This document shows positions 6,110-55,376 of a stretch of DNA of 64,000 bases, in pieces. This DNA is from Chitinophagaceae bacterium (GTDB lineage: Bacteria > Bacteroidota > Bacteroidia > Chitinophagales > Chitinophagaceae): the NCBI GenBank assembly GCA_024508725.1, contig JANINS010000003.1, positions 806,001-870,000 on the forward strand. Reading direction: 5' to 3'. Under the pieces are notes generated by a model that had not been told where the DNA came from, ran no database searches, and saw only the letters and a list, made by a program, of their open reading frames with translations. The position numbers and the translations under genes are program-made. Numbering within the stretch: the stretch's first letter is position 1; the number at the start of each line of letters is the position of its first letter.

Positions 6110-6583
6110 ATGCAAAAGATAACACCATTTCTTTGGTTCGATGGAAACGCAGAAGAAGCAGTAAACCTTTACACGTCTTTGTTTCCAGATTCTAAGATCA
6201 CATCTGTAACAAGAAATCCGAAAGGTGCACCAGGACCTGAAGGTGCTGTATTAACGATGGGGTTTGAACTGTTTGGACAAAAATTCGCTGCCCTGAATGG
6301 TGGACCAATGTATAAGTTTACCGAAGCTGTTTCATTCGTCGTGAATTGTGAAACGCAGGAAGAAGTAGATAAATACTGGGATGCTTTACTTGCTGATGGA
6401 GGAAAAACGCAGGCTTGTGGATGGCTGAAAGATAAATTTGGTCTTTCCTGGCAAATAACACCAACCATCTTACCAGAATTGCTTGCAGCCGGAGGTAAAA
6501 AATCAGAAAGAGTAATGCAGGCAATGATGCAAATGATCAAGCTGGATATAGCAGAATTAAAAAGAGCTGCCGAAGAGGTATGA
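6110..6583 (+). CDS. VOC-superfamily (PhnB/DUF899-like glyoxalase fold) protein
   Basis: 157 aa with the PhnB-type VOC pattern: MQKITPFLWFDGNAEEAVNLY at the start, an FxLFGQKFAALNGG segment and GWLKDKFGLSWQI near residue 105. Members are often mis-annotated as ubiquinone methyltransferases; no SAM-binding motif is present. The fold usually coordinates a metal or small ligand. Last gene of the SRPBCC/SRPBCC/VOC group, a combination common in Bacteroidota but of unknown role. A hairpin follows the stop. Confidence 0.85.
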   Translation: MQKITPFLWFDGNAEEAVNLYTSLFPDSKITSVTRNPKGAPGPEGAVLTMGFELFGQKFAALNGGPMYKFTEAVSFVVNCETQEEVDKYWDALLADGGKTQACGWLKDKFGLSWQITPTILPELLAAGGKKSERVMQAMMQMIKLDIAELKRAAEEV

Positions 6584-6597
6584 TCAATTCTTTCGTT

Positions 6598-6649
6598 GCT
6601 TTTGGGTAGGCCATCATCACTTAAAAATTTAGGTGGCTACCCAAAAAGC
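6598..6649. repeat. Inverted repeat after the VOC gene
   Basis: Arms 6598-6613 and 6634-6649 (core TTTGGGTAG..CTACCCAAA) can form a stem of about 15 bp around a 20-base loop. There is no T-run after it, so it is a possible but not classical terminator. Confidence 0.5.
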
Positions 6650-6818
6650 ATAATGACAAGTCTATGTTTTTATTAATTGCTTTTTTCAATCAACCCTAAA
6701 CACAACAACACTCATAGCTAACATATCTGTAAAAAGTTGATCTGTAAACCGTATTTCCCCTAATTTCGCTGCTCTTCATTTTTCCTTGTCTGCCGCTTGG
6801 GTGAAGCAATAAATCATT

Positions 6819-7232
6819 GTGATGATAACACCACCAGACAAGCAGTATATTTTATACATAGAAGACGATCCTGAAGATGTAGAGCTACTCGATCATGTTT
6901 TACAGGAAAAAAATCTCCCTATCCGCATAGTACAGATGCTAAATGGTGCAGATGCCCTTGACTTTCTCGAAAAAGCAAAAGTGATGAACCTGCTTCCTGA
7001 AATGATCTTATTAGACATCAATATGCCAAAGCTGGATGGCAAAGAAACATTCGTTTGTATAAAAGCAGATAAGAGACTGGCAAGAATACCACTTGCCGTG
7101 TTATCAACTTCTAACCTTGATATGGATACCAGCTATTTCAAGAAATACCATATTCCGTACATTATCAAACCCGGCGACACGAAAAAGTTTGGCCAGGAGA
7201 TCATGGAACTGATAAAAAGAGTGATACGCTGA
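6819..7232 (+). CDS. Single-domain response regulator (CheY-like receiver)
   Basis: 137 aa containing only a receiver domain. The acidic pocket is E15-D16-D17, the phospho-acceptor D66 (LLDINMPKLDG), the switch Ser/Thr around S96 (LSTSN) and the conserved Lys K117 (IIKPGD). No output domain follows, so it is likely a phosphorelay intermediate or protein-interaction regulator. No kinase is adjacent; the nearest PAS/DHp-like protein is at 20-1192. Two adjacent ATG codons make the start uncertain by one residue. Confidence 0.9.
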   Translation: MMITPPDKQYILYIEDDPEDVELLDHVLQEKNLPIRIVQMLNGADALDFLEKAKVMNLLPEMILLDINMPKLDGKETFVCIKADKRLARIPLAVLSTSNLDMDTSYFKKYHIPYIIKPGDTKKFGQEIMELIKRVIR

Positions 7233-7302
7233 GGTTGTTAACTGAATAAAGCCATATACTCCCGTTTCACATATCTTTAACCGCATCCATCATTAATATT
7301 TG

Positions 7303-7310
7303 TATGTTTG
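7303..7310 (+). promoter_or_regulatory. -7 box directly before small peptide gene, copy 1
   Basis: TATGTTTG matches TAnnTTTG and ends 5 bases before the ATG at 7316. Transcription would start at or next to the ATG, implying a leaderless mRNA. The second copy of the gene has the same arrangement at 16986-16993. Confidence 0.5.
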
Positions 7311-7315
7311 TCTAA

Positions 7316-7480
7316 ATGAACATGCCTGTTATACATACCAGGAATTTACACATTAAACCACTGATCCTTGACATGAGGAACAGCTATACGTGTTCATTTA
7401 CCGAATTTTTTCCTTTTTGTCCGAAGCTTTACTACTTCAGCAATTTCAAAGACTTTAATACTTCTTCCCCAACTAAGTAA
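7316..7480 (+). CDS. Small aromatic, Cys-containing peptide, copy 1 (54 aa)
   Basis: Too short for routine gene calling. The C-terminal half carries TCSFTEFFPFC and KLYYFSNFKDF: two Cys nine residues apart in a Phe/Tyr-rich stretch. The gene at 16998-17159 encodes a homologue. Over 27 aligned codons (RNS to KDF) 22 residues are identical, and 10 of the 15 differing codons are synonymous, which indicates coding selection. Possible starts are 7316, 7322 and 7373; the conservation (L[IV]L[DN]xRNS) begins before 7373, favouring the earlier ones. No signal peptide is evident. It lies upstream of a membrane-protein pair. It could be a functional micro-protein or a leader peptide. Confidence 0.65.
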   Translation: MNMPVIHTRNLHIKPLILDMRNSYTCSFTEFFPFCPKLYYFSNFKDFNTSSPTK

Positions 7481-7491
7481 TTAAGTTGGGG
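7467..7491 (+). terminator. Hairpin overlapping the stop of the small peptide gene
   Basis: CCCCAACT (7467-7474) pairs perfectly with AGTTGGGG (7484-7491) across a 9-base loop containing the stop codon. A weaker CTACAG/CTGTAG hairpin follows at 7503-7523. Neither has a strong T-run, so an attenuator-like role is as likely as termination. Confidence 0.4.
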
Positions 7492-7587
7492 TTATGCCTT
7501 TGCTACAGTGTTTATTGCTGTAGCTCTCCGTTTACATCTTATCAACTGGCATGCACTTTATAAAAGTCGGCCGCAAAATTCCGGGCA

Positions 7588-8136
7588 ATGGAAGTAATCA
7601 TAGTACCAATTGTACTGCTTGCTGTAATAGCAGCTGTATCTGTTTTCCTGGTAAGATCAGAGAAAAAGCAACGCCATCGTCAAAAGCATCAACTTCTTGC
7701 ACAGCTAAGACAGCTGGGCCATGAAAAACAATTGCGGTTCAGCAGTGAAGCCTATTTAAAAAATGCTGCCATCGGTTTAGATGGTATCAACAGAACATTG
7801 CTGTACTATGAACCTGCAGTAAATGATTCACCAGAGAAAATAATGGAGATACATCTTGATGAAGTGCAGCATTGCTCCACCAAACATGTTTCCCGTTCCA
7901 TATATGCACATGATACGCAAATCAATAAATCAGAAACATTTTTAGAAAGCATTTGCCTGCGCATCACTTTCAACAATGGAAGATCAGCGGAGGAACTGGT
8001 ATTCTTTAAAAGTACACGTGATGGATTATACGAGATGAAAGAGCTGGGAAAAACATGTTCAAGATGGGAGTCATCACTCAACAAACTGATCCCCAAAAAA
8101 GTTGCCGGCATTAAACCGATGTTGGTAGTAAAATAA
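7588..8136 (+). CDS. Single-pass membrane protein of unknown function, 182 aa
   Basis: An N-terminal TM helix (residues 3-22) is followed by a basic stretch (EKKQRHRQKHQ) that places the remainder in the cytoplasm. Residues 45-180 look like a globular mixed alpha/beta domain (YYEPAV..., LRITFNNG, ELVFFKS). The family was not recognised. It ends 6 bases before the two-TM/Rnk-like gene, so the two are probably co-transcribed and may work together at the inner membrane. Confidence 0.7.
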   Translation: MEVIIVPIVLLAVIAAVSVFLVRSEKKQRHRQKHQLLAQLRQLGHEKQLRFSSEAYLKNAAIGLDGINRTLLYYEPAVNDSPEKIMEIHLDEVQHCSTKHVSRSIYAHDTQINKSETFLESICLRITFNNGRSAEELVFFKSTRDGLYEMKELGKTCSRWESSLNKLIPKKVAGIKPMLVVK

Positions 8137-8142
8137 TAAAAA

Positions 8143-8835
8143 ATGAGTTCTTCATCAAAGCTCTATACGAAGAATGAAGGGATTGTTGCCCTTACCGTAT
8201 TGGTCAATGGCATTGTGCTTAAAATGGCGCTAATCAATTCATCAGCCTGGTATAAGCTGCTTTGGATAACCATTCCATGGACGTTAGTGTCGTTAATAAA
8301 CATGCGGAAAAGGAAATATCGTTTGCATCACTACCCGGTAATCCGGCATTTCAGATATTTCTCGAAGAACAAAACACACAAAACAGATCCATGTTTAAAC
8401 GATACGGATAACCTGATTATACATTCAAATACTCAAACTTATTTTATGCAGATCACACAACAACAACCTATAATAAGACAAGATGATTATGACATCATCA
8501 TGAGTTACCTGAAAACAGGTGAATCAAGAACATTATTCAACCGATATGATGTTGAAGACCTGACAACAGAATTAAAACGTGCAAGAGTAATTCCACAAGA
8601 TCAGCTTTTACCGCCTGATGTAGTAGGACTAAACTCTTCAGTATTGATAAAAGACGACCAGGGAAAAACATTTGAGCTTACGGTGGTTACACCTAAGCTT
8701 GCGAACATCAAATCAAGAAAAGTATCAGTAATGTCTCCAATTGGCCGTGCACTGATCGGTTATAGAAAAGGGCAAACAATCTCATGGAAAGTTCCTGCCG
8801 GAGAGAAAAGCTTTACTATACTGGATGTTCAATAG
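8143..8835 (+). CDS. Two-TM protein fused to a GreA/GreB-Rnk-like domain
   Basis: Residues 1-60 form a two-TM hairpin (TM1 about 15-33, TM2 about 38-53) homologous to the complete 60-aa protein at 17322-17504 (shared SSxWYxxLxITIP). Residues 102-230 resemble Rnk/GreA-GreB-family proteins: RARVIPQDQLLPPDVV, then a C-terminal FKBP-like fold with MSPIGRALIGYRKGQ and a final ILDVQ. Those proteins bind RNA polymerase or nucleoside diphosphate kinase in the cytosol, so membrane anchoring is odd. The linker (61-101) is Asn/His/Thr-rich and looks like read-through sequence. An in-frame ATG at 8446 would start a normal-length Rnk-like protein and may be the true start of a separate product. Confidence 0.75.
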   Translation: MSSSSKLYTKNEGIVALTVLVNGIVLKMALINSSAWYKLLWITIPWTLVSLINMRKRKYRLHHYPVIRHFRYFSKNKTHKTDPCLNDTDNLIIHSNTQTYFMQITQQQPIIRQDDYDIIMSYLKTGESRTLFNRYDVEDLTTELKRARVIPQDQLLPPDVVGLNSSVLIKDDQGKTFELTVVTPKLANIKSRKVSVMSPIGRALIGYRKGQTISWKVPAGEKSFTILDVQ

Positions 8836-8900
8836 CTCATGCCCAGATTGAGTTAAACAATAAGATGTGTTTTATTGCTATAGACGATGGTTCGTAACCG

Positions 8901-8924
8901 AAAGCCCCTTTCCAGGGGCTTTTT
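8901..8924 (+). terminator. Rho-independent terminator
   Basis: AAAGCCCCT / AGGGGCTTT with a 4-base loop, followed by TTATTTTA. It closes the plus-strand unit before the convergent small gene at 8948. Confidence 0.85.
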
Positions 8925-8947
8925 ATTTTAAAATCATTAAATGGATC

Positions 8948-9187
8948 TTACTGGTCGAGGTGATGTTGTATCTCTGCCACTACTGCAGCAACAAGATGCT
9001 GATCTATCGTACCAGATAATTCCGGTGCAACCACGGCCCGATAATTTCTTTCTTCATCCGGTTCGAGAACAACCTCCATACCTTCAACATCAAGATAGAT
9101 TTTATGCGTATATCCTAATTGAAGAAGGCTGCCTTCTATTGTATAGTCTTTGCTATTATGATTGATCGTTAAAGAAAATGTTTCCAT
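8948..9187 (-). CDS. Small hypothetical protein downstream of antiporter, 79 aa
   Basis: A short, acidic, probably cytosolic protein (beta-rich start FSLTINHNSKDYTIEG, C-terminal helix VVAEIQHHLDQ). Its ATG overlaps the antiporter stop by one base (TAATG), so translation is likely coupled and a partner or accessory role is plausible. Family not recognised. Confidence 0.75.
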   Translation of the reverse strand: METFSLTINHNSKDYTIEGSLLQLGYTHKIYLDVEGMEVVLEPDEERNYRAVVAPELSGTIDQHLVAAVVAEIQHHLDQ

Positions 9188-11409
9188 TATTGTTTATTGG
9201 CAGATTTAAGTTGACGTAGTTTTTCCCTGTTGCTCACAACGAACAAGATGTCGTTTGGTTGAATGATCATATCTGACGAAGGATTGAGTATTCGCTCTTG
9301 ATTTCGTTGTAGTCCTACGATCAATGCACTTGCCTTTTCTCTTAAACCAGATTCACGGATAGTTTTTTCAGCGAGGTAAGGATATTGTGCTACACGCAAC
9401 TCTAATAATTCAACATCGCCATTATTGTCTCCAACAAGCGGCTCTTTGGGACGAAGCAATGCTTTTAATCGCTGTACCTGGTGATCGGTACCTAACACAA
9501 GTAATTCATCTCCCGGAAAGATCAATGAAGCTTTATCAGGTACTGGTATCTGGTATTCACCACGTTTTATCATTACAACGTTAATGCCTGCAATTTCACG
9601 CCATTGCAATTCAAGTAAAGATTTGCCAACGCAGGGAGCGTCGAAAGGAATTTTTACAGGCACAATTCTCGCATCCCATGGAGCAAGCTCAGAACGATTC
9701 AATCTGTCATCTTCCCGTTCTCGTTGATGCAGGTTACTAAGGAATCGTTTTTCAAGCCGATGATAAAATGATTGTATTCTCCCGCTGAAAATGATCAGCA
9801 GTACAATGATCATCGTTGTAAACAATATACCTGTATAAATATCAAAGAACCTATGCAGCAAAAATCCGATTACAAATGCTGTAAGTGCAAGTCTTAACCA
9901 GCGTGTAACGGCAACCGTACCCTTGAATCTTGGATTGTTTACTAATGTTGAATATGCCTGTGCCGGTGTTTTAATTGCCAAAGCCCACAAGAACGGACTC
10001 AACACAGCCAATGTAAGCAGGCAGGCCAAAGCTTTCGCCCAATCCGGATTATTATTTTTTTCCAGCCATGGTTTAACATATATAGACGCAAAAACCACTA
10101 CTGAAATGATCACGGTACATAACAACGTAATGTTTAGTAACGATGAACGAAGAAACAATTTCCATTCACTCGTTTTTGTTACCTGGCTTGTTGTTGTTGC
10201 ATAACGATTCAACCGTACAACCAATCCTTGCGGAAGCCGTTTCTGCAGCCATTGATTGAAAGGCTGAGCTGAACGGATCAGATAAGGAGTTGTAAGTGTT
10301 GTTACTGCAGATACTGCTACGGCAATGGGATATAGAAAATCGCTGGTAACCTTGAGCGTTAAACCAAGAGTGGCAATGATGAACGAGAATTCGCCGATCT
10401 GTGCGAGGCTAAATCCTGCTTGTACAGAAGTGGTGAGCTGTTGCCCGGAAAGCAATGCTCCGGCAGTAGTGCTGAGTATTTTACCTGCTATTGTTGCCAG
10501 GCATAAGATCAAAACGGGTATTGCATATTCAACCAGTATCGCAGGATCTATCAGCATACCAACCGATACAAAGAATATTGCACCGAACAGATCTTTTACA
10601 GGAGTAATAAGGTGTTCGATCTTTTCGGCTTTTGTAGTTTCAGCAAGTATCGATCCCATGATAAAAGCACCCAATGCAGGTGAAAAACCTACAGCATTGG
10701 CAAATACAACCATCAACAGGCATAACGCAATGGCGATGATCAGCAGCATTTCGTTACTGATGATATTGCGGATACGTTTAAGGAAAGTAGGTACCAGGAA
10801 AATGCCCATGAGAAACCATATCACCAGGAAGAATAACAGCTTTAGTATAGAATAGATCATCTCCATTCCTGCAAACTGACGGCTCACTGCTACAGTAGTT
10901 AACAATACCATCAGCACAATGGCAACAAGATCTTCAACGATCAAAACACCAAATACCAATGCCGCAAACTTTCTCGTTTTATAACCCAGTTCGTCAAATG
11001 CCCTGATAATAATAGTGGTAGATGAGATGGAAAGTATTCCACCAAGAAACAGGCTATCCATGCTGTTCCATCCCATGGCGGTTCCAACACCATAACCAAT
11101 AGCGATCATTACTACTACTTCAACAATTGCTGTTACCGAAGCAGGGCCTCCTACCTTTATCAGTTTCTTAAAACTAAACTCAAGCCCTAAACTGAATAGG
11201 AGAAATATCACTCCGATCTCGGCCCAGATCGTAATGTTTCCTCTTTCTGTTACGGTAGGCAGCCAATGAAAATAAGGACCAACTAAAAACCCGGCTATGA
11301 TATATCCAAGCACCAATGGTTGCTTAAGCCACTTGAATAATAAGGTGATCGCTGCAGCTGCAGCAAGTATCAGGGCAAGGTCAGTGATCAGGTGAGGAAG
11401 ATGCGCCAT
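9187..11409 (-). CDS. CPA2-family cation:proton antiporter with TrkA-C domains
   Basis: 740 aa. Residues 1-385 are a Na+/H+-exchanger domain with about 12 TM segments (early LGYIIAGFLVGP and GVIFLLFSLGLEF motifs typical of KefB/KefC/YbaL). Unusually, about four further TM segments follow (residues 415-545). Two RCK C-terminal (TrkA-C) domains end the protein (about 590-655 and 665-735; PGDELLVLG and PNDILFVVS). It probably exchanges K+ or Na+ for protons under ligand control. There is no Rossmann RCK-N domain between, unlike KefB/C. The start ATG is directly before a strong TM helix. Confidence 0.88.
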   Translation of the reverse strand: MAHLPHLITDLALILAAAAAITLLFKWLKQPLVLGYIIAGFLVGPYFHWLPTVTERGNITIWAEIGVIFLLFSLGLEFSFKKLIKVGGPASVTAIVEVVVMIAIGYGVGTAMGWNSMDSLFLGGILSISSTTIIIRAFDELGYKTRKFAALVFGVLIVEDLVAIVLMVLLTTVAVSRQFAGMEMIYSILKLLFFLVIWFLMGIFLVPTFLKRIRNIISNEMLLIIAIALCLLMVVFANAVGFSPALGAFIMGSILAETTKAEKIEHLITPVKDLFGAIFFVSVGMLIDPAILVEYAIPVLILCLATIAGKILSTTAGALLSGQQLTTSVQAGFSLAQIGEFSFIIATLGLTLKVTSDFLYPIAVAVSAVTTLTTPYLIRSAQPFNQWLQKRLPQGLVVRLNRYATTTSQVTKTSEWKLFLRSSLLNITLLCTVIISVVVFASIYVKPWLEKNNNPDWAKALACLLTLAVLSPFLWALAIKTPAQAYSTLVNNPRFKGTVAVTRWLRLALTAFVIGFLLHRFFDIYTGILFTTMIIVLLIIFSGRIQSFYHRLEKRFLSNLHQREREDDRLNRSELAPWDARIVPVKIPFDAPCVGKSLLELQWREIAGINVVMIKRGEYQIPVPDKASLIFPGDELLVLGTDHQVQRLKALLRPKEPLVGDNNGDVELLELRVAQYPYLAEKTIRESGLREKASALIVGLQRNQERILNPSSDMIIQPNDILFVVSNREKLRQLKSANKQ

Positions 11410-11571
11410 AAATTTATTTTCAACAGCTGCAGATCAGCAAAACAATTAAACCGATTTGTTGTTAGATAACAAGCAATACAACAAATGTTATCTTACAGTG
11501 CCGGTAAGATATGCTTCAATGCATATCGGGTGATTAATTAAATACAAACAGACCAGGAACAATTTTCCAGG

Positions 11572-11910
11572 TCATCGAAACTTATGATGCGGATATAATA
11601 GCAAAAAATGGTAAGTACTACCGCTTTCAACATTTAAAGAGATAATATCATCTGTATTTACAGATAAAAAAGAAAGTCTGGCATCAGAAGCAATTCCATC
11701 GCTACTTGTTCTGTCAACAATTTGAACCCCTGTTCTTACAAGGCTAATAATACCGCCAACCAGGTCGTCCTGGTTATCGTTGTGAGATCTTGTTAGTTTT
11801 GCTTTCTGTACGATGTTATGAGATGCTTTTATATTATTTGCAAGAACCGGAGAACCAGCACCTGCAAATAATAATATCACCACCGTCACTATGATCCGCA
11901 TCCATCTCAT
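11572..11910 (-). CDS. Small exported hypothetical protein, 112 aa
   Basis: An N-terminal signal peptide (basic MRWMR, hydrophobic core to about residue 20, cleavage near VLANN) precedes a polar region with SHNDNQDDLVGG and a C-terminal beta-type segment. Not recognised. It stands alone: the antiporter start lies 162 bases downstream and a terminator separates it from the DsbA-like gene. Confidence 0.6.
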   Translation of the reverse strand: MRWMRIIVTVVILLFAGAGSPVLANNIKASHNIVQKAKLTRSHNDNQDDLVGGIISLVRTGVQIVDRTSSDGIASDARLSFLSVNTDDIISLNVESGSTYHFLLLYPHHKFR

Positions 11911-12002
11911 GCTGCAAATATAACAAACCTTAACAAGCTTGCCGAAGCGTATGCATTTACTGATACGACAACAATATCAATCGGTGTTGCACCCAATGCA
12001 AA

Positions 12003-12031
12003 TAAGCTCAACCTTTTTACGGTTGAGCTTA
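12003..12031 (-). terminator. Hairpin terminator below the DsbA-like gene
   Basis: A perfect 11-bp stem (TAAGCTCAACC / GGTTGAGCTTA) with a 7-base loop, 21 bases past the stop of the minus-strand DsbA-like gene. The T-tract on that strand is weak. Confidence 0.7.
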
Positions 12032-12052
12032 CATTTTATCCAAAAGTTATCA

Positions 12053-12949
12053 CTATGCTATCTTTTTCCATAAACTACCATACGGAGTAGATATTTTACT
12101 GAATGTACCTGCTTCCTTCATCAAATGAAGATCATGTATAGCTTTATCAAGACCGGTTTCTCTGATCACCGCTAATTCTTTTTCAGCTATGGTGCTGTAC
12201 GATTGAAAGATCGCATCATCGTCTTTCAAAACCTTTTTAGTGATCCCTGGTAGTAACTGCAACAATGCAGTTTCATATTGCTCATAACTACTGCTACCAT
12301 AAAGTTTGAGCTTGCTTCCATCTTCACTGGTAAAATATATTGTAGGAAACCCTCTTACACCCCATTGTTTCGTGATTTCAAGGTCCTCTTCAAAAAAAGC
12401 GGTTGCTCTTCCTGCATAATCTACCATCAGTTGTTGTGTATCGAGACCACATTCTTCTGCTGCCTGCAATATGTTTCCTCCTTTGGCAATATTCTTTTTT
12501 TCAACAAAAACCATTTCACGCAAACGTCTTAATAATTTAATGGCTTTCTGCTCATCCTGTAACTGCGCTGCTTTAAAAGCGATGGATGCAGGATATGATG
12601 ATTGCAATGGATCTTCACGCCACACATTTGCATCGATAGGCATTTGGTAATGTTTCGCTGCTTCTTCCCAATGATCTGCAACTGAGGCAGGACCACTTAC
12701 ATCATTACCTCCATACGATTGCCAGCTTTTTAGCAGGCCACCCATCCGATATTCTATTTCGAAATGATCACCATATTCGAGTTTTAGTTTTCGCAGTTGA
12801 GGCTCTATACCCCAACATGCAGAACAGATTGGATCAGTAAAATAGATCATCTTCACTTTAGGCAATACAGTTGATGTAACTGTATCGCAACTTCCGGTAT
12901 GTATATCGCAGATCATGTTATTGTTTACAGGTGTTTTCATTTTATCCAT
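12053..12949 (-). CDS. DsbA-family thioredoxin-fold protein (FrnE/SpxH-like)
   Basis: 298 aa. A thioredoxin-fold core begins with IYFTDPICSACWG, giving a CxxC pair at C42-C45, and has the long helical insertion of DsbA/FrnE proteins. A second fold element (WGVRGFPTIYF, the cis-Pro loop) lies near residue 195. There is no signal peptide, so it acts in the cytoplasm, as a redox protein or a SpxH/YjbH-type protease adaptor; the sequence cannot decide. Last gene of the minus-strand run starting at 15581, with 28 bases between it and the DoxX gene. Confidence 0.8.
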   Translation of the reverse strand: MDKMKTPVNNNMICDIHTGSCDTVTSTVLPKVKMIYFTDPICSACWGIEPQLRKLKLEYGDHFEIEYRMGGLLKSWQSYGGNDVSGPASVADHWEEAAKHYQMPIDANVWREDPLQSSYPASIAFKAAQLQDEQKAIKLLRRLREMVFVEKKNIAKGGNILQAAEECGLDTQQLMVDYAGRATAFFEEDLEITKQWGVRGFPTIYFTSEDGSKLKLYGSSSYEQYETALLQLLPGITKKVLKDDDAIFQSYSTIAEKELAVIRETGLDKAIHDLHLMKEAGTFSKISTPYGSLWKKIA

Positions 12950-12977
12950 TTAGATGTTCATCAAAACTCAAATCATT

Positions 12978-13451
12978 CTACTGGTAAATTGCAACAGTAG
13001 GATCTTCCGGTTTATTTGCCGGATGATAGCCTTTGATATCATTTCGCTTTAATAAATAATCAACAGAATACTTACCGCTTCCGCCAATCATCAGGGCTGA
13101 GAAACCCAGCATATACATTAATGCGAGTTCCTGCTTTGCAAAAGGATCGGCTGCATGCACTACGAATGCCGCGATCAACATCGTAATAACTACAGGCACT
13201 GCTGCATATCTGGTTTTCCAACCAATCATCACCAGTAACGAACAGATCACTTCGGCAAATACTGCGAGCATTAATGAAGTTGTTGCACTCATACCCATCA
13301 CAGATGGAAATTGTATATCGGCAGAGGAAAAAAGCATGATCATTTTTGGAAGACCATGCACTAGCATTAAACTTCCTAAGCCAACTCTTAATAGCAGCAA
13401 GGCAGTATTGTTGCCTTTAGTAACTGCCGGTAACTCTTTGTTTCTTTTCAT
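12978..13451 (-). CDS. DoxX family membrane protein
   Basis: 157 aa with four TM segments and the DoxX pattern (LLLRVGLGSLMLVHGLPK at the start, a central LAVFAEVICSLLVMIG, a third helix near VVITMLIAAFVVHAADPF). DoxX-like proteins sit in the inner membrane and are linked to redox and thiol stress in other phyla. It lies between DsbA-like and SDR genes, in line with a redox/aldehyde-stress operon. A long inverted repeat upstream may modulate expression. Confidence 0.88.
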   Translation of the reverse strand: MKRNKELPAVTKGNNTALLLLRVGLGSLMLVHGLPKMIMLFSSADIQFPSVMGMSATTSLMLAVFAEVICSLLVMIGWKTRYAAVPVVITMLIAAFVVHAADPFAKQELALMYMLGFSALMIGGSGKYSVDYLLKRNDIKGYHPANKPEDPTVAIYQ

Positions 13452-13464
13452 AAACTAAATAATG

Positions 13465-13517
13465 TGTTACGCATTGCTCAAACCAACATACCCCAAATCA
13501 CACTGCAATGCGTAACA
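13465..13517. repeat. Perfect 13-bp inverted repeat between SDR and DoxX genes
   Basis: TGTTACGCATTGC (13465-13477) and its exact reverse complement (13505-13517) flank a 27-base loop. It fills the intergenic gap inside an otherwise tight gene run. It could be an mRNA-stabilising or attenuating hairpin, or a protein-binding site. Confidence 0.6.
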
Positions 13518-13528
13518 ATATTTTTAAA

Positions 13529-14278
13529 TTATTGCGCCAGGTATCCACCATCTGCAGGATAATAAGCACCTGTTACAAAAGATGATTTCGACGATGCAAG
13601 CCATAAGATCAATTCAGCGATCTCTTCTGCTTCTCCTAATCGTCCGATTGGGTGTAGATTTACCAATGCATCTAAAGCATTCTTATCAAGACTTTTCTCT
13701 ACAAGAGGTGTTTTAATATAACCAGGGCCTACTGCGTTGATACGAATTTTCTTATCAGCATATTCCAGTGCCGCTGCTTTCGTTAATCCAACCACGCCAT
13801 GTTTGGCAGCTACATAAGCAGGTGAAAATCTTGTTCCGGTATTACCCAGTATCGATGCGATATTAATGATGCTTCCTCCTTTATTAATCATTGCAGGAAG
13901 CTGGTAACGCAATCCGTAGAACACACCCGACAAGTTAATATCGATCACTTTTTGCCATCCGTCTAGTGGATACTCACCTGTAACACCTAACGGACCACCA
14001 ATACCGGCATTATTTACAGCAATGTCAACTGAGCCGAACGCTTCTATCGCTTTTTTAACCAGTGTTTCGTTGTCTTCAGGTTTCGATGAATCTGCTTTCA
14101 CAAAAACAGCCTCTCCGCCTTTCGAAATTATTTCTTTAACTACTGCGTCTCCATGTGTTTCATTGATATCCGACACTATCACTTTTGCTCCTTCAGTTGC
14201 AAATAATAATGCTGTGGATTTGCCTATACCCGAGCCTGCTCCGGTAATAATAGCAACTTTGTTCTCTAACTGTTTCAT
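13529..14278 (-). CDS. Classical short-chain dehydrogenase/reductase
   Basis: 249 aa, full-length classical SDR. Cofactor motif TGAGSGIG (residues 12-19), NNAG (about 90-93), catalytic Ser in NIASILGN and the YVAAK catalytic pair (about residues 155-159). The Asp in SDIN after the second beta strand suggests NAD+ preference. The substrate cannot be told. Member of the minus-strand redox run; 29 bases downstream of the YceI gene. Confidence 0.9.
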   Translation of the reverse strand: MKQLENKVAIITGAGSGIGKSTALLFATEGAKVIVSDINETHGDAVVKEIISKGGEAVFVKADSSKPEDNETLVKKAIEAFGSVDIAVNNAGIGGPLGVTGEYPLDGWQKVIDINLSGVFYGLRYQLPAMINKGGSIINIASILGNTGTRFSPAYVAAKHGVVGLTKAAALEYADKKIRINAVGPGYIKTPLVEKSLDKNALDALVNLHPIGRLGEAEEIAELILWLASSKSSFVTGAYYPADGGYLAQ

Positions 14279-14307
14279 GTGATTACTTTTTAGAGATGAA
14301 AAAATAT

Positions 14308-14892
14308 TTATTGAACGAACTCACCATCAGCCTTAATGCTCACCTTATCGCTGATCATTGGAGGAGGAAAGCCATTGCCAAGGTTGAAGTCTGAACGTTT
14401 GATTGTTCCGGTTACCTGGAAACCTGCTGTTTGCTTTTGATTCATCGCATTCACAGTTGAACCACGATACAAAAGATCTAGTGTTACCTGTTTCGTAACG
14501 CCATGAATCGTGAGGTCTCCGGTTACTTTGTATTTATCCTTTCCCGATTTCTTTAGGGATGTGCTCTTAAAATTGATCGTAGGATATTTTGCAACATCAA
14601 AAAAATCTGCACTCTTCAGGTGATTGTCCCTCGCCTCAACCCTTGTATCGATCGAGTTAACCTTTGCTGTAAACTCGAATACTGCATCGCTGAAATCAGG
14701 TTTTGATGATGTAATGGTTGCATCAAAATCATTAAACGTTCCTGTTACATCTGCAATGCCAAGGTGCGTTACTGTGAACTGTGCCTGTGAGTGTGCATCA
14801 TCATTTGTCCATGTATACGTTGCGTAACTGAATGCACTAAGCATAATGAAAGCTGCAAATACGATCGAGATTCTTTTTGTTATAGATTTCAT
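14308..14892 (-). CDS. YceI family periplasmic lipid-binding protein
   Basis: 194 aa with an N-terminal signal peptide (MKSITKRISIVFAAFIMLSA) and the YceI lipocalin-like barrel: AQFTVTHLGIADVTGTF at the start, DTRVEARDNHLKSADFFD in the middle, GDLTIHGVTK towards the end. YceI proteins bind polyisoprenoids such as isoprenoid quinones in the periplasm. The gene is 26 bases below the F420/NADP reductase-like gene and shares its probable transcript. Confidence 0.92.
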   Translation of the reverse strand: MKSITKRISIVFAAFIMLSAFSYATYTWTNDDAHSQAQFTVTHLGIADVTGTFNDFDATITSSKPDFSDAVFEFTAKVNSIDTRVEARDNHLKSADFFDVAKYPTINFKSTSLKKSGKDKYKVTGDLTIHGVTKQVTLDLLYRGSTVNAMNQKQTAGFQVTGTIKRSDFNLGNGFPPPMISDKVSIKADGEFVQ

Positions 14893-14918
14893 TGGTTTGT
14901 GTTTTATGTTTTTTTGAA

Positions 14919-15581
14919 TTAATGATGTAATATTTTCCAGCCTGCAAGCCAGTTATAATTGTATTTCATTCCCAGGCGTATCAGCAACAACTGCATCGCT
15001 TCGAGTGTACGGCTTGTACTAAGATCGCCTGCGATGATAGGATTGAAACCTGCAGTACTTACCAGCTCCTTTACAGTTTCCATAGCATCTTCATCATTCC
15101 CGGCGATAAAAGCATCTGCCTGTTTTCCATCTATTACCGGCGTTGCAAAGTCAGCCGCAAAAGTTGTGTTGAAAGCCTTTACCACTTTTGCATTTGGTAA
15201 TAAATTCTGTAATTCTTCAGCCGCACTTGTTAAAGGTGATGTTATCAATCCGTCAAATGTTTCGTTGAGTGGATTAGCGATAGATATCACGATCTTTTGA
15301 TTGGCCACTTCCCTGATCTTTTCAACTATTTCTTTTTCGGCCTGGAAAGGAACAGCGAGGATGATGATATCAGCTTCCCAACTTGCTTCAGCCGAACAGG
15401 TGATTGCTTCAAGATCAGCCAAAGGATGCTCTTTCTTAATATCAGCACTTAATGCATCAAGTGCATTCTTGTCGTTTCCCTTTAGCAAAAGCCTGTAATT
15501 GCCTTTTGCCAGCGATCTTGCAATGGCAGCACCCATATTACCGGTGGCTCCTATAATTGCTATGGCTTGTTTTGTATTCAT
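14919..15581 (-). CDS. NADPH-dependent F420-reductase-like Rossmann protein
   Basis: The family (NADP_F420 / NpdG-like) is shown by the N-terminal IAIIGATGNMGAAIARSL, the DIIILAVPFQ strand and KVVKAFNTTFA near the middle. ATG at 15581 is chosen because the fold starts directly there. A 22-residue upstream extension to 15647 is in frame but overlaps a -7 box and an inverted repeat and has no family character. Bacteroidota usually lack F420, so the partner is more likely a flavin or another NADP substrate. It heads the minus-strand run 12053-15581. Confidence 0.82.
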   Translation of the reverse strand: MNTKQAIAIIGATGNMGAAIARSLAKGNYRLLLKGNDKNALDALSADIKKEHPLADLEAITCSAEASWEADIIILAVPFQAEKEIVEKIREVANQKIVISIANPLNETFDGLITSPLTSAAEELQNLLPNAKVVKAFNTTFAADFATPVIDGKQADAFIAGNDEDAMETVKELVSTAGFNPIIAGDLSTSRTLEAMQLLLIRLGMKYNYNWLAGWKILHH

Positions 15582-15602
15582 TTTCGTTTCAAATTGATAA
15601 TG

Positions 15603-15610
15603 CAAAACTA
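15603..15610 (-). promoter_or_regulatory. -7 box of the redox gene run
   Basis: The minus strand reads TAGTTTTG (TAnnTTTG), 21 bases before the ATG at 15581. GCAAT-containing half-sites lie just upstream. Confidence 0.45.
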
Positions 15611-15656
15611 CTATTGCATGACGCCATGCACCATTGCGTTTGGGCAATAAATAGTC

Positions 15657-15670
15657 TTGATTAAAATCAA
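15657..15670. promoter_or_regulatory. FNR-type operator TTGAT-N4-ATCAA
   Basis: TTGATTAAAATCAA is an exact match to the known FNR consensus TTGATNNNNATCAA. It lies about 60 bases upstream of the inferred start site for the 15581 gene and just past the stop of a Crp/Fnr regulator whose recognition helix has the ETxSR pattern of FNR. Confidence 0.55.
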
Positions 15671-15717
15671 TGAAACGGGATAAAAAAGATAGTACGTTAC
15701 AAGCTCATCATTAACCG

Positions 15718-16299
15718 CTATCTACGTGTGGTGATCTTTTTCCGAACCCGGCTTAATGTTTCAGGAGTTAATCCCATATAAGAAGCGATCATGTGTTGCG
15801 GTACTCTTTGTACAATATGCGGATAAAGGGCAGTGAATCCCTGGTAGCGTTCTTCAAGCGGAAGACTAATCACAGAAGTTAGTCGCTTTTGCAATGCGAT
15901 ATATGCACTCGTGATCTGGAGGCGTATCCAGGTTTCATAAACAGGAAGCTTATGCAGTAAATCCTCGTGAGCGCCTTTACTTATAAGCAGCAACTCACAA
16001 TCTTCTATTGCATCAATGGTATAAGTCGCAGGCTCTGCCGTTAAGAAACTATACAGATCTGATATCAACCATCCTTCTATGGCGAACTGGATAATATGTT
16101 CGTTACCTTTTTCACCAATGGTATAAGACCTTAAAACACCTTTTTCAACAAAGGCAACGAATTTGCAAACATCTCCTTCCTGTAACAGGTATTGCTTTTT
16201 TCTAAGCTTTTTAGGCGTAAGATATGATTTAAGAATTGCCTGGTCTTTCTTAGTTAATGAAACTTGCTTTTGAATCGTTTCGAAAAATACTTCGTACAT
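15718..16299 (-). CDS. Crp/Fnr family transcriptional regulator
   Basis: 193 aa: an N-terminal cyclic-nucleotide-type beta roll (about 25-115; LLQEGDVCKFVAFVEKG) and a C-terminal winged helix (about 150-190; VPQHMIASYMGLTPETLSRVR). There is no N-terminal Cys cluster, so it does not carry an FNR-type iron-sulphur cluster, and the phosphate-binding Arg-Ala of Crp is absent; the effector is unknown. The recognition helix TPETLSR (E180, S183, R184) matches FNR contact residues. It precedes the redox run in the same orientation and is a good candidate for its regulator. Confidence 0.9.
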   Translation of the reverse strand: MYEVFFETIQKQVSLTKKDQAILKSYLTPKKLRKKQYLLQEGDVCKFVAFVEKGVLRSYTIGEKGNEHIIQFAIEGWLISDLYSFLTAEPATYTIDAIEDCELLLISKGAHEDLLHKLPVYETWIRLQITSAYIALQKRLTSVISLPLEERYQGFTALYPHIVQRVPQHMIASYMGLTPETLSRVRKKITTRR

Positions 16300-16368
16300 T
16301 AAACTGAAGTTACAGAATTCTATCAGCCACTCAACACCTTTTCATTTATTACCTATAAAGATCAAAAT

Positions 16369-16674
16369 ATGGATAACTATATTACTTTATCTGAAACAAT
16401 GAACAAATTGCGTAATGAAGGTTATACGGAAGATTTCAACCTCCGGCAAAACTGTATCGAATGTCGCAATGGCGAGTATAAAATTTTTGCGGAAGATTTT
16501 AAAGTAGATAAATATTATCGCTTCGAAGGTGCCAGCAATCCTTCTGACTCGTCTATACTTTATGCGATATCCTCAGACCGTTTCGGTTTGAAAGGAGTAT
16601 TGGTAAATGGATATGGCATATACAGTGATCCTGCAACAGATGAGCTGATGGAAAAACTTCGCATAAGAGAATAA
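16369..16674 (+). CDS. Conserved small hypothetical protein, 101 aa
   Basis: A family recurrent in Bacteroidota that is sometimes labelled phosphoribosylpyrophosphate synthetase without evidence; no PRPP motif is present. Residues 1-90 are alpha/beta (TLSETMNKLRNEGYTEDF, then FKVDKYYRFEGASNPSDSSILYAI), with a GLKGVLVNGYG strand near the end. Two Cys sit at residues 29 and 32. It is divergent from the Crp/Fnr gene and shares a 69-base control region with it. Confidence 0.75.
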   Translation: MDNYITLSETMNKLRNEGYTEDFNLRQNCIECRNGEYKIFAEDFKVDKYYRFEGASNPSDSSILYAISSDRFGLKGVLVNGYGIYSDPATDELMEKLRIRE

Positions 16675-16790
16675 TCTCTTTATCGATGCAGCTTTAATAA
16701 TGTTGTTGATTTATATCAATGCTATTTCTTATCCAAAGACAACGTATTCCAAAAAGCACAATGATAGCTTTGCATATAAATACTTTAGCT

Positions 16791-16898
16791 ATGTCAACAA
16801 CATATATCATTGCGCTGATCATTACAGCAGTCATATCAAGTTCTTTATTATTGATCTTGAAGATCAATCTTCAACAACAGAAGAAAATAAAGAAATGA
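16791..16898 (+). CDS. Possible 35-aa single-TM peptide
   Basis: A hydrophobic helix (YIIALIITAVISSSLLLIL, residues 5-23) is followed by a basic tail (QQQKKIKK), giving an N-out, C-in topology. It resembles the N-terminus of the 182-aa protein at 7588 (TM then KKQ-rich). It lies just before the second small-peptide gene. Coding is plausible but unproven; a 70-aa ORF in another frame over the same DNA looks less protein-like. Confidence 0.35.
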   Translation: MSTTYIIALIITAVISSSLLLILKINLQQQKKIKK

Positions 16899-16985
16899 TG
16901 AATATTAATTAACAAACGTTCAATCAAAGCTTCACTATAACTTAAACAGGAAGCTGCTTTACCTTTTTCTTAAATATTGAATTGA

Positions 16986-16993
16986 TAAATTTG
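16986..16993 (+). promoter_or_regulatory. -7 box directly before small peptide gene, copy 2
   Basis: TAAATTTG (TAnnTTTG) ends 4 bases before the ATG at 16998, the same geometry as copy 1. A leaderless transcript is the simplest reading. Confidence 0.5.
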
Positions 16994-16997
16994 AATT

Positions 16998-17159
16998 ATG
17001 ACAGGCAGGTGTGATCATATTGGTATCTTTCAAACACCGTTTCTTGTGTTGAATACGAGAAACAGCCTTACCTGTTCGTTTACAGAATTCTTCCCTTTCT
17101 GCGCTAAACTGTACTTCTTCAGCAGTTACAAAGACTTTAGTATTTCCGTTCCGGCGTGA
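16998..17159 (+). CDS. Small aromatic, Cys-containing peptide, copy 2 (53 aa)
   Basis: Homologue of the peptide at 7316-7480. The conserved block is RNSLTCSFTEFFPFC then AKLYFFSSYKDF, with the same Cys spacing and aromatic clusters; a third Cys sits at residue 5. The single clear ATG start gives nearly the same length as copy 1. Conservation extends N-terminal to the block at hydrophobic positions (LVLNTRNS). A 5-bp hairpin (17167-17193) follows the stop, and the 60-aa two-TM gene lies 162 bases further on. Function unknown. Confidence 0.68.
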   Translation: MTGRCDHIGIFQTPFLVLNTRNSLTCSFTEFFPFCAKLYFFSSYKDFSISVPA

Positions 17160-17321
17160 TTATTTGGCTGGTGAAATCGATTTAAAATCCAGCTCCGGCA
17201 AATACATGCTTCGTCAACAGATTGTTTGTCTGCAACAGCATAGCACCTATCCGTTTTATAAATTCTCGAGGGAGATATCCATGCTGTATCGCAGAAATTT
17301 CATCACTTAAAACCAGCAATC

Positions 17322-17504
17322 ATGAGAAAACAAGAACGTCATATTACACTGAGCGGTTTTCTTTTCGCAACGGTAATCCTGATAAATGTGTGGGTTATCT
17401 ATTTTGCAGTGATGCAAAGCAGCAGTTGGTATTGGTGGCTGATAATCACGATACCTTTATTGTATATGTCAGTAAAAGATGTACTGCACAAGAAGTATTA
17501 CTAG
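17322..17504 (+). CDS. Two-TM small membrane protein, 60 aa
   Basis: A basic N-terminus (MRKQERH), TM1 (about 10-30), a short SSSWYW turn, TM2 (about 38-52; LIITIPLLYMSV) and a basic C-terminus (HKKYY), so both ends are probably cytosolic. It is homologous to residues 1-60 of the 8143-8835 fusion, where the stop has been lost. It converges on chaA with an 11-base gap. The shared neighbourhood with the Cys peptide at both loci suggests a functional link. Confidence 0.7.
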   Translation: MRKQERHITLSGFLFATVILINVWVIYFAVMQSSSWYWWLIITIPLLYMSVKDVLHKKYY

Positions 17505-17515
17505 TATTGTGTTTA

Positions 17516-18604
17516 CTAAGGAACAATAGTGGTAAAAAGATAAACCGCAAATACTACAAGTAATACAACACCCTGCAGAACATTGGTTCTTCCTGTACCA
17601 AAAGAAAGCATGATGGTGAATAAAGACAACATAAGTAACACCATTGATTTGGTATCGATCCCCAATGTAACAGGAAAACCCGTAAACACCGATACCATCG
17701 CTACCGCAGGAATGGTTAACCCAATGCTGGCAAGCGCTGATCCCAACGCAAGGTTCAGACTGGTTTGCAACCTGTTTTTCCTCGCTGCTCTTAATGCAGC
17801 GATCCCTTCAGGAAGTAAGATCACCAATGCAACAATAATTCCCACAAGCGATTTAGGAGCACCGGCACTTACTACTGTGCTCTCAATCACCGGTGATAAA
17901 GTTTTTGCAAGTAACACAACAGCACCAAGGCAAATCAATAATAACAAGGTACTGAGTAAAGCTGCTGCATTAGTTGGTGGCAATGCATGCATATCTTCAT
18001 CCTGCTGTGCATCGGAAGGCAAAAAATAATCCCGGTGCCTTACAGCCTGTACCATTACAAAAGTGCCATAAAGTACTAATGAAACGATGGCCACAAATAT
18101 CAGTTGGCTGGAACTGTACACAGGTCCGGCAACACTGGTAGTATAGTTAGGTAAGATAAGTGTGAGAATGGTAATAGCTGTAAGCGTAACCAATGAAGAG
18201 CTGACAGCATATTTGCCGAATACCTGCTCATGATATCGAACTCCACCTACTAATAAGCACAAACCGATGATTCCTGTTAGAATGATCATTACTGCAGCAA
18301 ATACAGTATCTCTTGCAAGCGTTGCTGCTTCTGCACCTCCTGATATCATTAGCGAAACAACCAGTGACACTTCAATAACTGTAACAGCGATGGCTAATAC
18401 CAACGTACCATAAGGCTCGCCTATACGATGAGCGATCACTTCTGCATGATGCACCGCAGCCATCACAGCTGCCATTAACGCCAATCCGGCAAGTGATGCA
18501 AATAAAGTACCCGTTGTATCAGGTTGAAAAAAATAAAACAGCCATGCAATTATGGGTGCAACAATTGTCCAGAGTGGTAATGGCAGCTTTTTAATCATTC
18601 TCAA
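17516..18604 (-). CDS. chaA: Ca2+(Na+)/H+ antiporter, ChaA-type
   Basis: 362 aa, 11 predicted TM segments. The two alpha-repeat motifs of the CaCA superfamily are clear: HHAEVIAHRIGEPYGTLVLA then VIEVSLV (residues 52-80) and ILLPEGIAALRAARKNR then LGSALASIGLTIPAV (about 265-305), with the ion-binding Glu in each. It lacks the C-terminal regulatory tail. It would extrude Ca2+ (and possibly Na+/K+) from the cytoplasm using the proton gradient. Transcribed alone. Confidence 0.92.
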   Translation of the reverse strand: MRMIKKLPLPLWTIVAPIIAWLFYFFQPDTTGTLFASLAGLALMAAVMAAVHHAEVIAHRIGEPYGTLVLAIAVTVIEVSLVVSLMISGGAEAATLARDTVFAAVMIILTGIIGLCLLVGGVRYHEQVFGKYAVSSSLVTLTAITILTLILPNYTTSVAGPVYSSSQLIFVAIVSLVLYGTFVMVQAVRHRDYFLPSDAQQDEDMHALPPTNAAALLSTLLLLICLGAVVLLAKTLSPVIESTVVSAGAPKSLVGIIVALVILLPEGIAALRAARKNRLQTSLNLALGSALASIGLTIPAVAMVSVFTGFPVTLGIDTKSMVLLMLSLFTIMLSFGTGRTNVLQGVVLLVVFAVYLFTTIVP

Positions 18605-54600: not shown

Positions 54601-54683
54601 CAGTATAAGGTCATCAACAAATCTATCTCGCTTTGCAGAGTAGCATCAAGATTACACTCACACTAAAGCACCGCACAAACTAA

Positions 54684-54955
54684 ATCAGCAACGCAAAGTT
54701 CATCACGGCCACAAAGATCATCTTCACGCATCATTTTATCCGGCCCCAAAACTTCGGGATTGAAAAAAAATGCCCCGCATATTTTTTCGAAGGATAAAAT
54801 GCAGCGTGCAGTACCAACATCAGGCAATTACAACTCCGCACTAAGAGTTTCGTCTCTGCATACTCATCCGCTTCCTGCATCACAACCCCTCACACATAGG
54901 GAGGCGTTGGCCGGTCCCGCTGCACGGAGTGTTTCGGCGGGACTTGATCTTTTGC
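54684..54955. repeat. 272-bp direct repeat, copy 1
   Basis: Shares long identical blocks with 55105-55376 (start ATCAGCAACGCAAAG; ACGCATCATTTTATCC; GGATAAAATGCAGCGTGCAGTA; GGGAGGCGTTGG; TGCACGGAGTGTTTCGGCGGGAC). Within it ATTTTATCC/GGATAAAAT and GTCCCGC/GCGGGAC are inverted pairs. Confidence 0.85.
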
Positions 54956-55104
54956 CTGCCCGACTGCCGGCGGGTTTCTTTTTCTTGTCAAGAGAAATGC
55001 GAAGCATTCACCGAATCCAAAATGCAAACAAACTATCTGAGGTAAAAAGAAAGACATAGCCGATAACAAAGCGCTGTTCTTTCATAAAACAGCGCTCGGG
55101 TATA

Positions 55105-55376
55105 ATCAGCAACGCAAAGTTGTTCACGGTTGCTAAGATCTCTTCACGCATCATTTTATCCGCTATCGCCGCAGGCGAGATTGAAAAAATCCTACGGCAT
55201 ATTTTTTCAAAGGATAAAATGCAGCGTGCAGTATCAACATCAGGTAGTACAATTCCGCACTAAGAGCTTCGTCTCTGCACACACTCATCCGCTTCCTGCA
55301 CTCCCACCGCTCACACATAGGGAGGCGTTGGCTCGTCCCGCTGCACGGAGTGTTTCGGCGGGACTTGATCTTTTGC
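55105..55376. repeat. 272-bp direct repeat, copy 2
   Basis: Same ends and same length as copy 1, spaced 421 bp start to start, with scattered substitutions and a different centre (GCTATCGCCGCAGGCG in place of GGCCCCAAAACTTCGG). Followed by CTTGATC/GATCAAG and CTTTTC/GAAAAG inverted repeats. Confidence 0.85.

Follow-up and report, generated by a model that had tools for sequence, protein, structure and literature searches.

The window, a stretch of 64,000 nucleotides from a Chitinophagaceae bacterium, contains two copies of a short open reading frame (ORF), each preceded by a promoter box (Table 1). The source genome (3.88 Mb) has two copies of this ORF. Copy 1 had been described in an initial annotation as a 54-codon ORF whose C-terminal part is conserved in what we call copy 2, and this was borne out. 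Our recount of the 27 codons from RNS to KDF agreed exactly with the figures given at that time (12 identical, 10 synonymous and 5 non-synonymous codons), and changes were indeed concentrated at third positions, the two copies differing 2, 4 and 11 times at codon positions 1, 2 and 3, respectively. The two Cys of copy 1 are nine residues apart, as had been claimed.

Table 1. Features of the two proposed leader-peptide loci in the window. K, Lys codon of the FKDF motif; K+n, position in nucleotides relative to this codon.
Feature	Coordinates	Strand	Remarks
Bacteroidota -7 promoter box TATGTTTG	7303..7310	+	5 nt before ATG, copy 1
Leader-peptide ORF, copy 1	7316..7480	+	54 codons, ATG to TAA; K codon at 7448
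Conserved C-terminal stretch MRNSYTCSFTEFFPFCPKLYYFSNFKDFNT	7373..7462	+	copy 1
Hairpin H1	7467..7491 (arms 7467-7474, 7484-7491)	+	5' arm at K+19; stop TAA 7478-7480 in loop
Second hairpin	7502..7524 (arms 7502-7510, 7516-7524)	+	copy 1
First downstream gene, PH-like, 182 aa	7588..8136	+	long N-terminal helix (probable membrane anchor) and seven-strand domain
Second downstream gene, 230 aa	8143..8835	+	small-membrane-protein domain fused to Rnk/GreA-like domain
-7 box TAAATTTG	16986..16993	+	4 nt before ATG, copy 2
Leader-peptide ORF, copy 2	16998..17159	+	53 codons; K codon at 17130
Small membrane protein, 60 aa	17322..17504	+	downstream of copy 2; locus has small-membrane-family match

The first gene downstream of copy 1 encodes a protein for which the structural model (pLDDT 91.7) consists of a long N-terminal helix, seven strands and a C-terminal helix. 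The protein has sub-threshold Pfam matches only. Comparison of the model with solved structures gave none at E≤0.001, the best being the DUF1696 PH-domain protein 3dcx_B, with a weak E of 0.022 (probability 1.00, TM 0.36/0.55). Judging from the model, it is likely that the product has a PH-like fold. The product of the second gene matches PF01272 above cut-off (E 6.8e-21) and NF004396 (nucleoside diphosphate kinase regulator) under cut-off (E 6.8e-25; 87.5 bits, cut-off 109). The small-membrane and Rnk/GreA-like domains that are fused in this protein are encoded by separate genes elsewhere, for example in locus L127. The gene immediately before copy 1 (6819-7232, same strand) encodes a single-domain response regulator (PF00072, E 5.4e-11). 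A pair of ~420-nt repeats was also found at 54664-55376; such repeats (families D1-D4) lie mostly between longer ORFs, and their pieces are 73-92% identical, with a spacing of 419-421.

Relatives of the leader ORF are concentrated in the family of the source organism. Its 35-aa C-terminal part matched 96 of 394 genomes of this family at E≤0.1 (own genome counted and weak matches included), while a 32-row profile at E≤1e-4 matched 82 of the 394, belonging to 34 of 101 genera. At the level of the order, 43 of 396 genomes matched at E≤0.01, of which 37 were in the same family and the other six had an E of 6e-5 or weaker; at the level of the phylum, 4 of 395 matched at E≤1e-4, three of them from the same family. 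A scan of 84,980 species gave 141 pattern matches, of which 82 were confirmed and 80 kept. From their genus we take these 80 to be Bacteroidota, save one bin titled Azovibrio restrictus (L192), and the leader of this bin is nearly the same as that of a contig titled uncultured Bacteroides (L072). Named genera with the leader are Chitinophaga, Niastella, Flavisolibacter, Dyadobacter and Pedobacter. There was no copy in the one other genome of the genus examined (76% complete), and no match at E≤1 in either plasmid or phage collections, for which the 35-aa sequence is a weak query. Some genomes have 2-3 copies of the leader, and those of Paraflavisolibacter caeni precede different members of the downstream gene set.

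From the 119 matches to the 35-aa part in the family, the best 91 (E≤0.0054) were taken up; the peptide set A2 comprised 32 of 60 peptides. A pattern within the motif served to anchor the loci; five of them (L036, L037, L038, L055, L060) failed it and were anchored with a looser one. The 170 anchored loci contained 133 distinct sequences, from which we derived a non-redundant set of 100 (<88% nucleotide identity over K-45..K+15), to which all counts 'of 100' refer. The own-genome match L003 (E 0.48) and L085, which has no motif, were left out of the counts.

Judged from the pattern of substitutions, the leader ORF is a translated peptide under purifying selection. With the Lys of FKDF numbered 0, dN/dS over codons -18..+4 amounted to 0.072 in frame 0, compared with 1.9 in frame 1 and 1.4 in frame 2 (40 disjoint pairs), and to 1.9 for the antisense strand (all 470 pairs). 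Since the anchoring pattern falls within the motif, we repeated the selection test on codons -18..-8, which lie outside this pattern and thus provide an independent test of the conservation of the C-terminal motif; dN/dS was 0.104 in frame 0 versus 1.53 and 1.38 in the other frames. The N-terminal codons (-38..-19) gave 0.31-0.36 in frame 0 and 0.97-1.32 otherwise. Stops within codons -36..+4 were found in 3 of the 133 distinct sequences in frame 0, as compared to 96 and 129 in the other two frames. Nine matches from the profile search that covered 82 of 394 genomes had one stop inside the matched stretch, and in four of these (L074, L075, L082, L086) it came directly after FKDFNT or KDFNK. 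Among the 100 non-redundant sequences, mean entropy over codons -10..+4 was 0.69, 0.74 and 1.36 bits at positions 1, 2 and 3, and the Ser at -3 was encoded by five different codons from both Ser boxes. The initial annotation had proposed a translated ORF under purifying selection and had suggested that its homologues across Bacteroidota be checked for low dN/dS. This is what we observed: matches were many, dN/dS in the C-terminal part was 0.07-0.10 in frame 0 but exceeded 1.3 in the two others, and there were neither frequent in-frame stops nor signs that DNA rather than residues had been conserved.

Strong conservation is confined to the C-terminal part of the peptide, which ends in YYxSNFKDFNT. 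Mean pairwise amino acid identity (ungapped) rose from 0.13 over codons -40..-20 to 0.42 over -18..-9 and 0.63 over -8..+4, the conservation of Tyr, Ser, Lys and Phe in the motif being partly by construction, as the anchoring pattern sits there. The peptides have a median length of 54 residues (range 41-60; 59 peptides). The earlier remark that no described family like this was known to its author also stood up to searching: a scan of copy 1 against Pfam and NCBIfam profiles returned no family at E≤1, and an Rfam scan of 8 loci gave no match at or above gathering score. The only two Rfam matches in window positions 6500-17600 were far below gathering, and neither was at a leader.

Two other functions for the peptide were considered. 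A secretion monitor was discarded, as a strongly hydrophobic N-terminal stretch was present in just 1 of 59 peptides by a crude test (17-aa stretch with a mean hydropathy of at least 1.6). Programmed frameshifting at the motif was dropped by reasoning: both TTT and TTC are used for Phe and both AAA and AAG for Lys, and therefore no slippery heptamer is kept.

The sequence TAnnTTTG was found 2-9 nt before an in-frame start in 59 of the 100 loci, as compared to 5 of 594 control windows; this arrangement of box and start was absent in the other 41. In the 59 loci with a box, the start was ATG in 47, the gap between box and start was 4-6 nt in 49, and the distance from the start to the motif Lys was 44-46 codons in 50. 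In Flavobacterium johnsoniae, the -7 element has been assigned to positions -12 to -5, and a distance of 4-5 nt between this element and the transcription start was taken to mark a probable promoter (PMC6847099). Since the box adjoins the start codon, the same spacing would place the 5' end of the message at the start codon or beside it; the leader message is probably leaderless. Leaders this short are uncommon in Bacteroides thetaiotaomicron, where 5' UTRs of less than 10 nt are reported to make up ~3.7% (PMC7366714), and a start codon at the predicted transcription start is therefore unusual. Likewise, among F. johnsoniae transcripts for which a promoter was probable, 87% are reported to have leaders longer than 10 nt, and Bacteroidota messages are described as being without Shine-Dalgarno sequences (PMC6847099).

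The initial annotation had favoured a protein instead of an RNA. Coding was confirmed, as shown above, but an RNA hairpin is also present at a fixed distance from the motif. A stem with a score of at least 15 started between K+9 and K+36 in 68 of the 100 loci, compared with 12-24 of 100 in six shifted windows, and among these 68 it started at K+19 in 46 and at K+18 in 10. A stem (H1) was found at K+17..K+20 in 78 of the 100 loci; in 22, copy 2 included, there was none with a score of at least 12 at this place. In the window, the folding z of the stretch that holds H1 and the second hairpin (7440-7540) was -2.94, while copy 2 has no hairpin at the usual place (z +0.30). The start of H1 is fixed relative to the motif Lys and not to the stop codon, the position of which ranges from K+15 to K+66 (100 loci), and the loop of H1 varies from 4 to 26 nt (78 loci). 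Thus, the hairpin and the tail of the peptide tolerate changes in length, which are seldom seen between motif and hairpin. H1 was present in 10 of 20 loci without Asp after the Lys, compared with 68 of 80 for the others (Fisher p 0.0018, kinship of the loci ignored). Its arm sequences differ between loci yet stay paired. At K+22, for example, the pair was C-G in 44 loci, A-T in 18, T-A in 6, G-C in 4 and G-T in 1, and the position was unpaired in 5 (of 78); since the stems were chosen by pairing, this shows variety and is no test.

In 75 of the 78 loci, copy 1 included, the 3' end of the ORF runs into H1; the stop codon lies in the loop in 59, in the 5' arm in 14, before H1 in 3 and in the 3' arm in 2. 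Judged by this overlap only, folding of H1 and the presence of a ribosome on this part of the ORF would be mutually exclusive. Terminator-like structures were found in 39 of 100 leader regions, as compared to 6-14 of 100 in seven control windows; their stem started at K+15..K+23 in 26 of the 39 and later in 13. At least 5 T in the 8 nt after H1 were found for just 13 of 78 stems. The 8 nt after the window's H1 contain 4 T, and this hairpin does not belong to the 39 terminator-like cases; nor was it retrieved by a separate terminator scan, the 8-nt loop limit of which excludes its 9-nt loop. In several loci (L056, L063, L071, L195), the 3' arm of H1 can alternatively pair with a downstream CTTCGG that is followed by a T-run, which would be the layout of an antiterminator and a terminator. 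As a general feature, an alternative hairpin involving the 3' arm of H1 was unsupported by shuffling (mean z -0.48 versus -0.25 in the control). Terminator-like structures are thus enriched, yet U-tracts are few and the alternative hairpin is not general; we therefore propose an attenuator and do not assign its sign.

Profiles built from downstream ORFs define three families of genes (Rnk/GreA-like, small membrane protein and PH-like), at least one of which was found downstream on the same strand in 96 of the 100 loci (search over 3.2 kb, in many loci 1.5-2 kb). The Rnk/GreA-like family was present in 59 loci, the small membrane protein in 58 and the PH-like family in 36, whereas antisense or upstream ORFs yielded these families in 0-2 of 100 loci. 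In many loci the first gene of these families starts at about K+100, the full range being K+26 to K+1690. As read from gene starts, the Rnk-like gene is the first one downstream in several Dyadobacter loci and in Pedobacter namyangjuensis. The small membrane protein family occurs alone or as part of longer proteins of ~520 aa, whose sequence reads like FMN-type glutamate synthase. Other downstream genes were also observed. In L021 and L044 the gene following the leader reads like an alpha-glucosidase, and in L023, L024, L037 and L038 the leader is followed by the small membrane protein and by a large membrane protein that appears to resemble a sodium/proton antiporter. In Chitinophaga varians, fulva and qingshengii (L191, L194, L196) a gene of 373-374 aa comes after the leader, its product starting with MY(I/L)DICKKEIRQVNKT; L191 is one of the four loci without any of the three usual families.

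These observations make it probable, in our view, that the ORF encodes a cis-acting leader peptide, on which the ribosome pauses and thereby sets the fold of an attenuator hairpin. Transcription would start at or next to the ATG, giving a leaderless message. The ribosome would translate a spacer of ~45 codons, whose sequence would be of little importance, and then the conserved segment ending in YYxSNFKDFNT. We infer that it pauses or stalls at this C-terminal segment in response to a cue, and that its position determines if H1, 19 nt beyond the Lys codon, is free to fold. A ribosome covers ~15 nt beyond the first base of its P-site codon. With the Asp of FKDF in the P site, its edge would be at about K+18, leaving free H1, which begins at K+19; a ribosome running on to the stop codon would sit on H1 and open it. 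H1, or at certain loci a later hairpin that uses the same 3' arm, would in turn set the amount of transcription that reaches the Rnk/GreA-like, small-membrane and PH-like genes. That the poorly conserved N-terminal part hardly varies in length would fit a chain filling the exit tunnel; against a pure spacer, this part is under some purifying selection, which a spacer does not need. Either direction of control would be compatible with the sequence. We lean towards H1 being a barrier to downstream transcription, because stems at its position are terminator-like more often than later ones (26 versus 13 of 100).

More tentatively, the leader may act as a sensor based on the nascent peptide, confined to some Bacteroidota and translated at the 5' end of a leaderless message, in which FKDF-dependent pausing would report the state of the translation machinery or a metabolite. 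Through the abutting hairpin, this sensor, present in 2-3 copies in some genomes, would control an undescribed module made of a Rnk-type RNA-polymerase secondary-channel factor, a small membrane protein and a membrane-anchored PH-like protein. We regard this more specific proposal as slightly less likely than not.

The small protein family proposed in the initial annotation is real, conserved and translated; what we question is that it is free-standing. Its product could act in trans as the first gene of an operon, the hairpin being an intra-operon terminator that sets stoichiometry. Residue selection extends over the whole ORF (dN/dS 0.31-0.36 in the N-terminal part), the length is near-constant in 50 of 59 loci and the same genes co-occur, all of which would suit such a protein. 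Yet mean identity over codons -40..-20 is just 0.13, the hairpin keeps its spacing to the motif rather than to the stop, residues after the motif are gained or lost as the stop drifts from K+15 to K+66, and the 2-3 copies in some genomes may stand before different members of the gene set, as in P. caeni. We therefore find a free-standing protein unlikely. A regulatory leader is preferred because of the spacing between promoter and start, the N-terminal part that is poorly conserved but near-constant in length and the coherence of the downstream genes.

The peptide could also act by translational coupling or attenuation, ribosomes on the ORF opening a structure that blocks initiation on the next gene, with no termination of transcription. 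Most H1 stems lack a good U-tract, the first family gene is close to the leader in many loci (start at ~K+100), and a translational attenuator has been listed for tetQ of Bacteroides (PMC5418344). Terminator-like structures are, however, enriched, and both the identity of the first gene and the distance to the first family gene (K+26 to K+1690) differ between loci; there is therefore no common initiation site that would be paired, and this makes coupling quite improbable. A structured non-coding RNA (riboswitch or sRNA) with an incidental reading frame is hardly credible: the promoter, the ~170-nt stretch and the hairpin, whose place is conserved, do resemble an sRNA gene, but variation falls on third positions with a dN/dS of 0.07-0.10, stops are kept out of frame 0 only, the Ser at -3 is encoded by five codons of both Ser boxes and no Rfam match reached gathering score.

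If the leader is a ribosome-pausing attenuator, it is of interest in several respects. Little is known of regulatory peptide switches among these bacteria of soil and water. One and the same leader is found before Rnk/GreA-like, small-membrane and PH-like genes and offers a handle on an uncharacterized module; as it is common to these genes, its cue, once found, would tell the purpose of the module. It also illustrates that the 3' end of a small ORF can serve as peptide code and RNA structure at once. In the open-licence PMC literature we found no description of this peptide family and no FKDF in connection with a leader peptide, and the portions of this literature that we covered held few nascent- or leader-peptide switches in Bacteroidota.

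The attenuators of amino acid biosynthesis operons (trp, his, ilv) have a leader ORF that overlaps alternative hairpins. In contrast with these, the present leader has no run of one amino acid, and its codons vary among synonyms; it is therefore the residues that are kept, and not the supply of one tRNA that is read. TnaC is, as proposed for this family, a short leader peptide that controls a downstream operon (PMC8429421). Compared with metabolite-sensing arrest leaders of the TnaC type, the motif is YYxSNFKDFNT here, the message is probably leaderless and the hairpin overlaps the stop codon. The translational attenuator of tetQ in Bacteroides is a case of leader-based control in the same phylum; it is described as drug-responsive and acting on translation (PMC5418344), whereas here there is a long and distinct conserved peptide, with other genes downstream. 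Candidate arrest peptides linked to Sec/YidC genes are also conserved uORFs with conserved C-terminal ends; they include the Bacteroidota clusters uDF_NAP-stop and uA_NSP-stop, and some clusters are reported as Bacteroidota-only (PMC10987492). These candidates end in N-A-P or N-S-P followed by a stop. Members of the NAP set are located before secDF, and that set was restricted to uORFs predicted to have an N-terminal localization signal (PMC10987492). Unlike them, the present family has the motif given above, shows a strongly hydrophobic N-terminal stretch in just 1 of 59 peptides and precedes other genes. In B. thetaiotaomicron, sORFs in long 5' UTRs have been called reminiscent of leader peptides (PMC7366714). 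Given these sORFs and the arrest uORFs of Bacteroidota, leader peptides as such have precedents in the phylum; the peptide family described here is new, and the kind of switch proposed for it is one already known.
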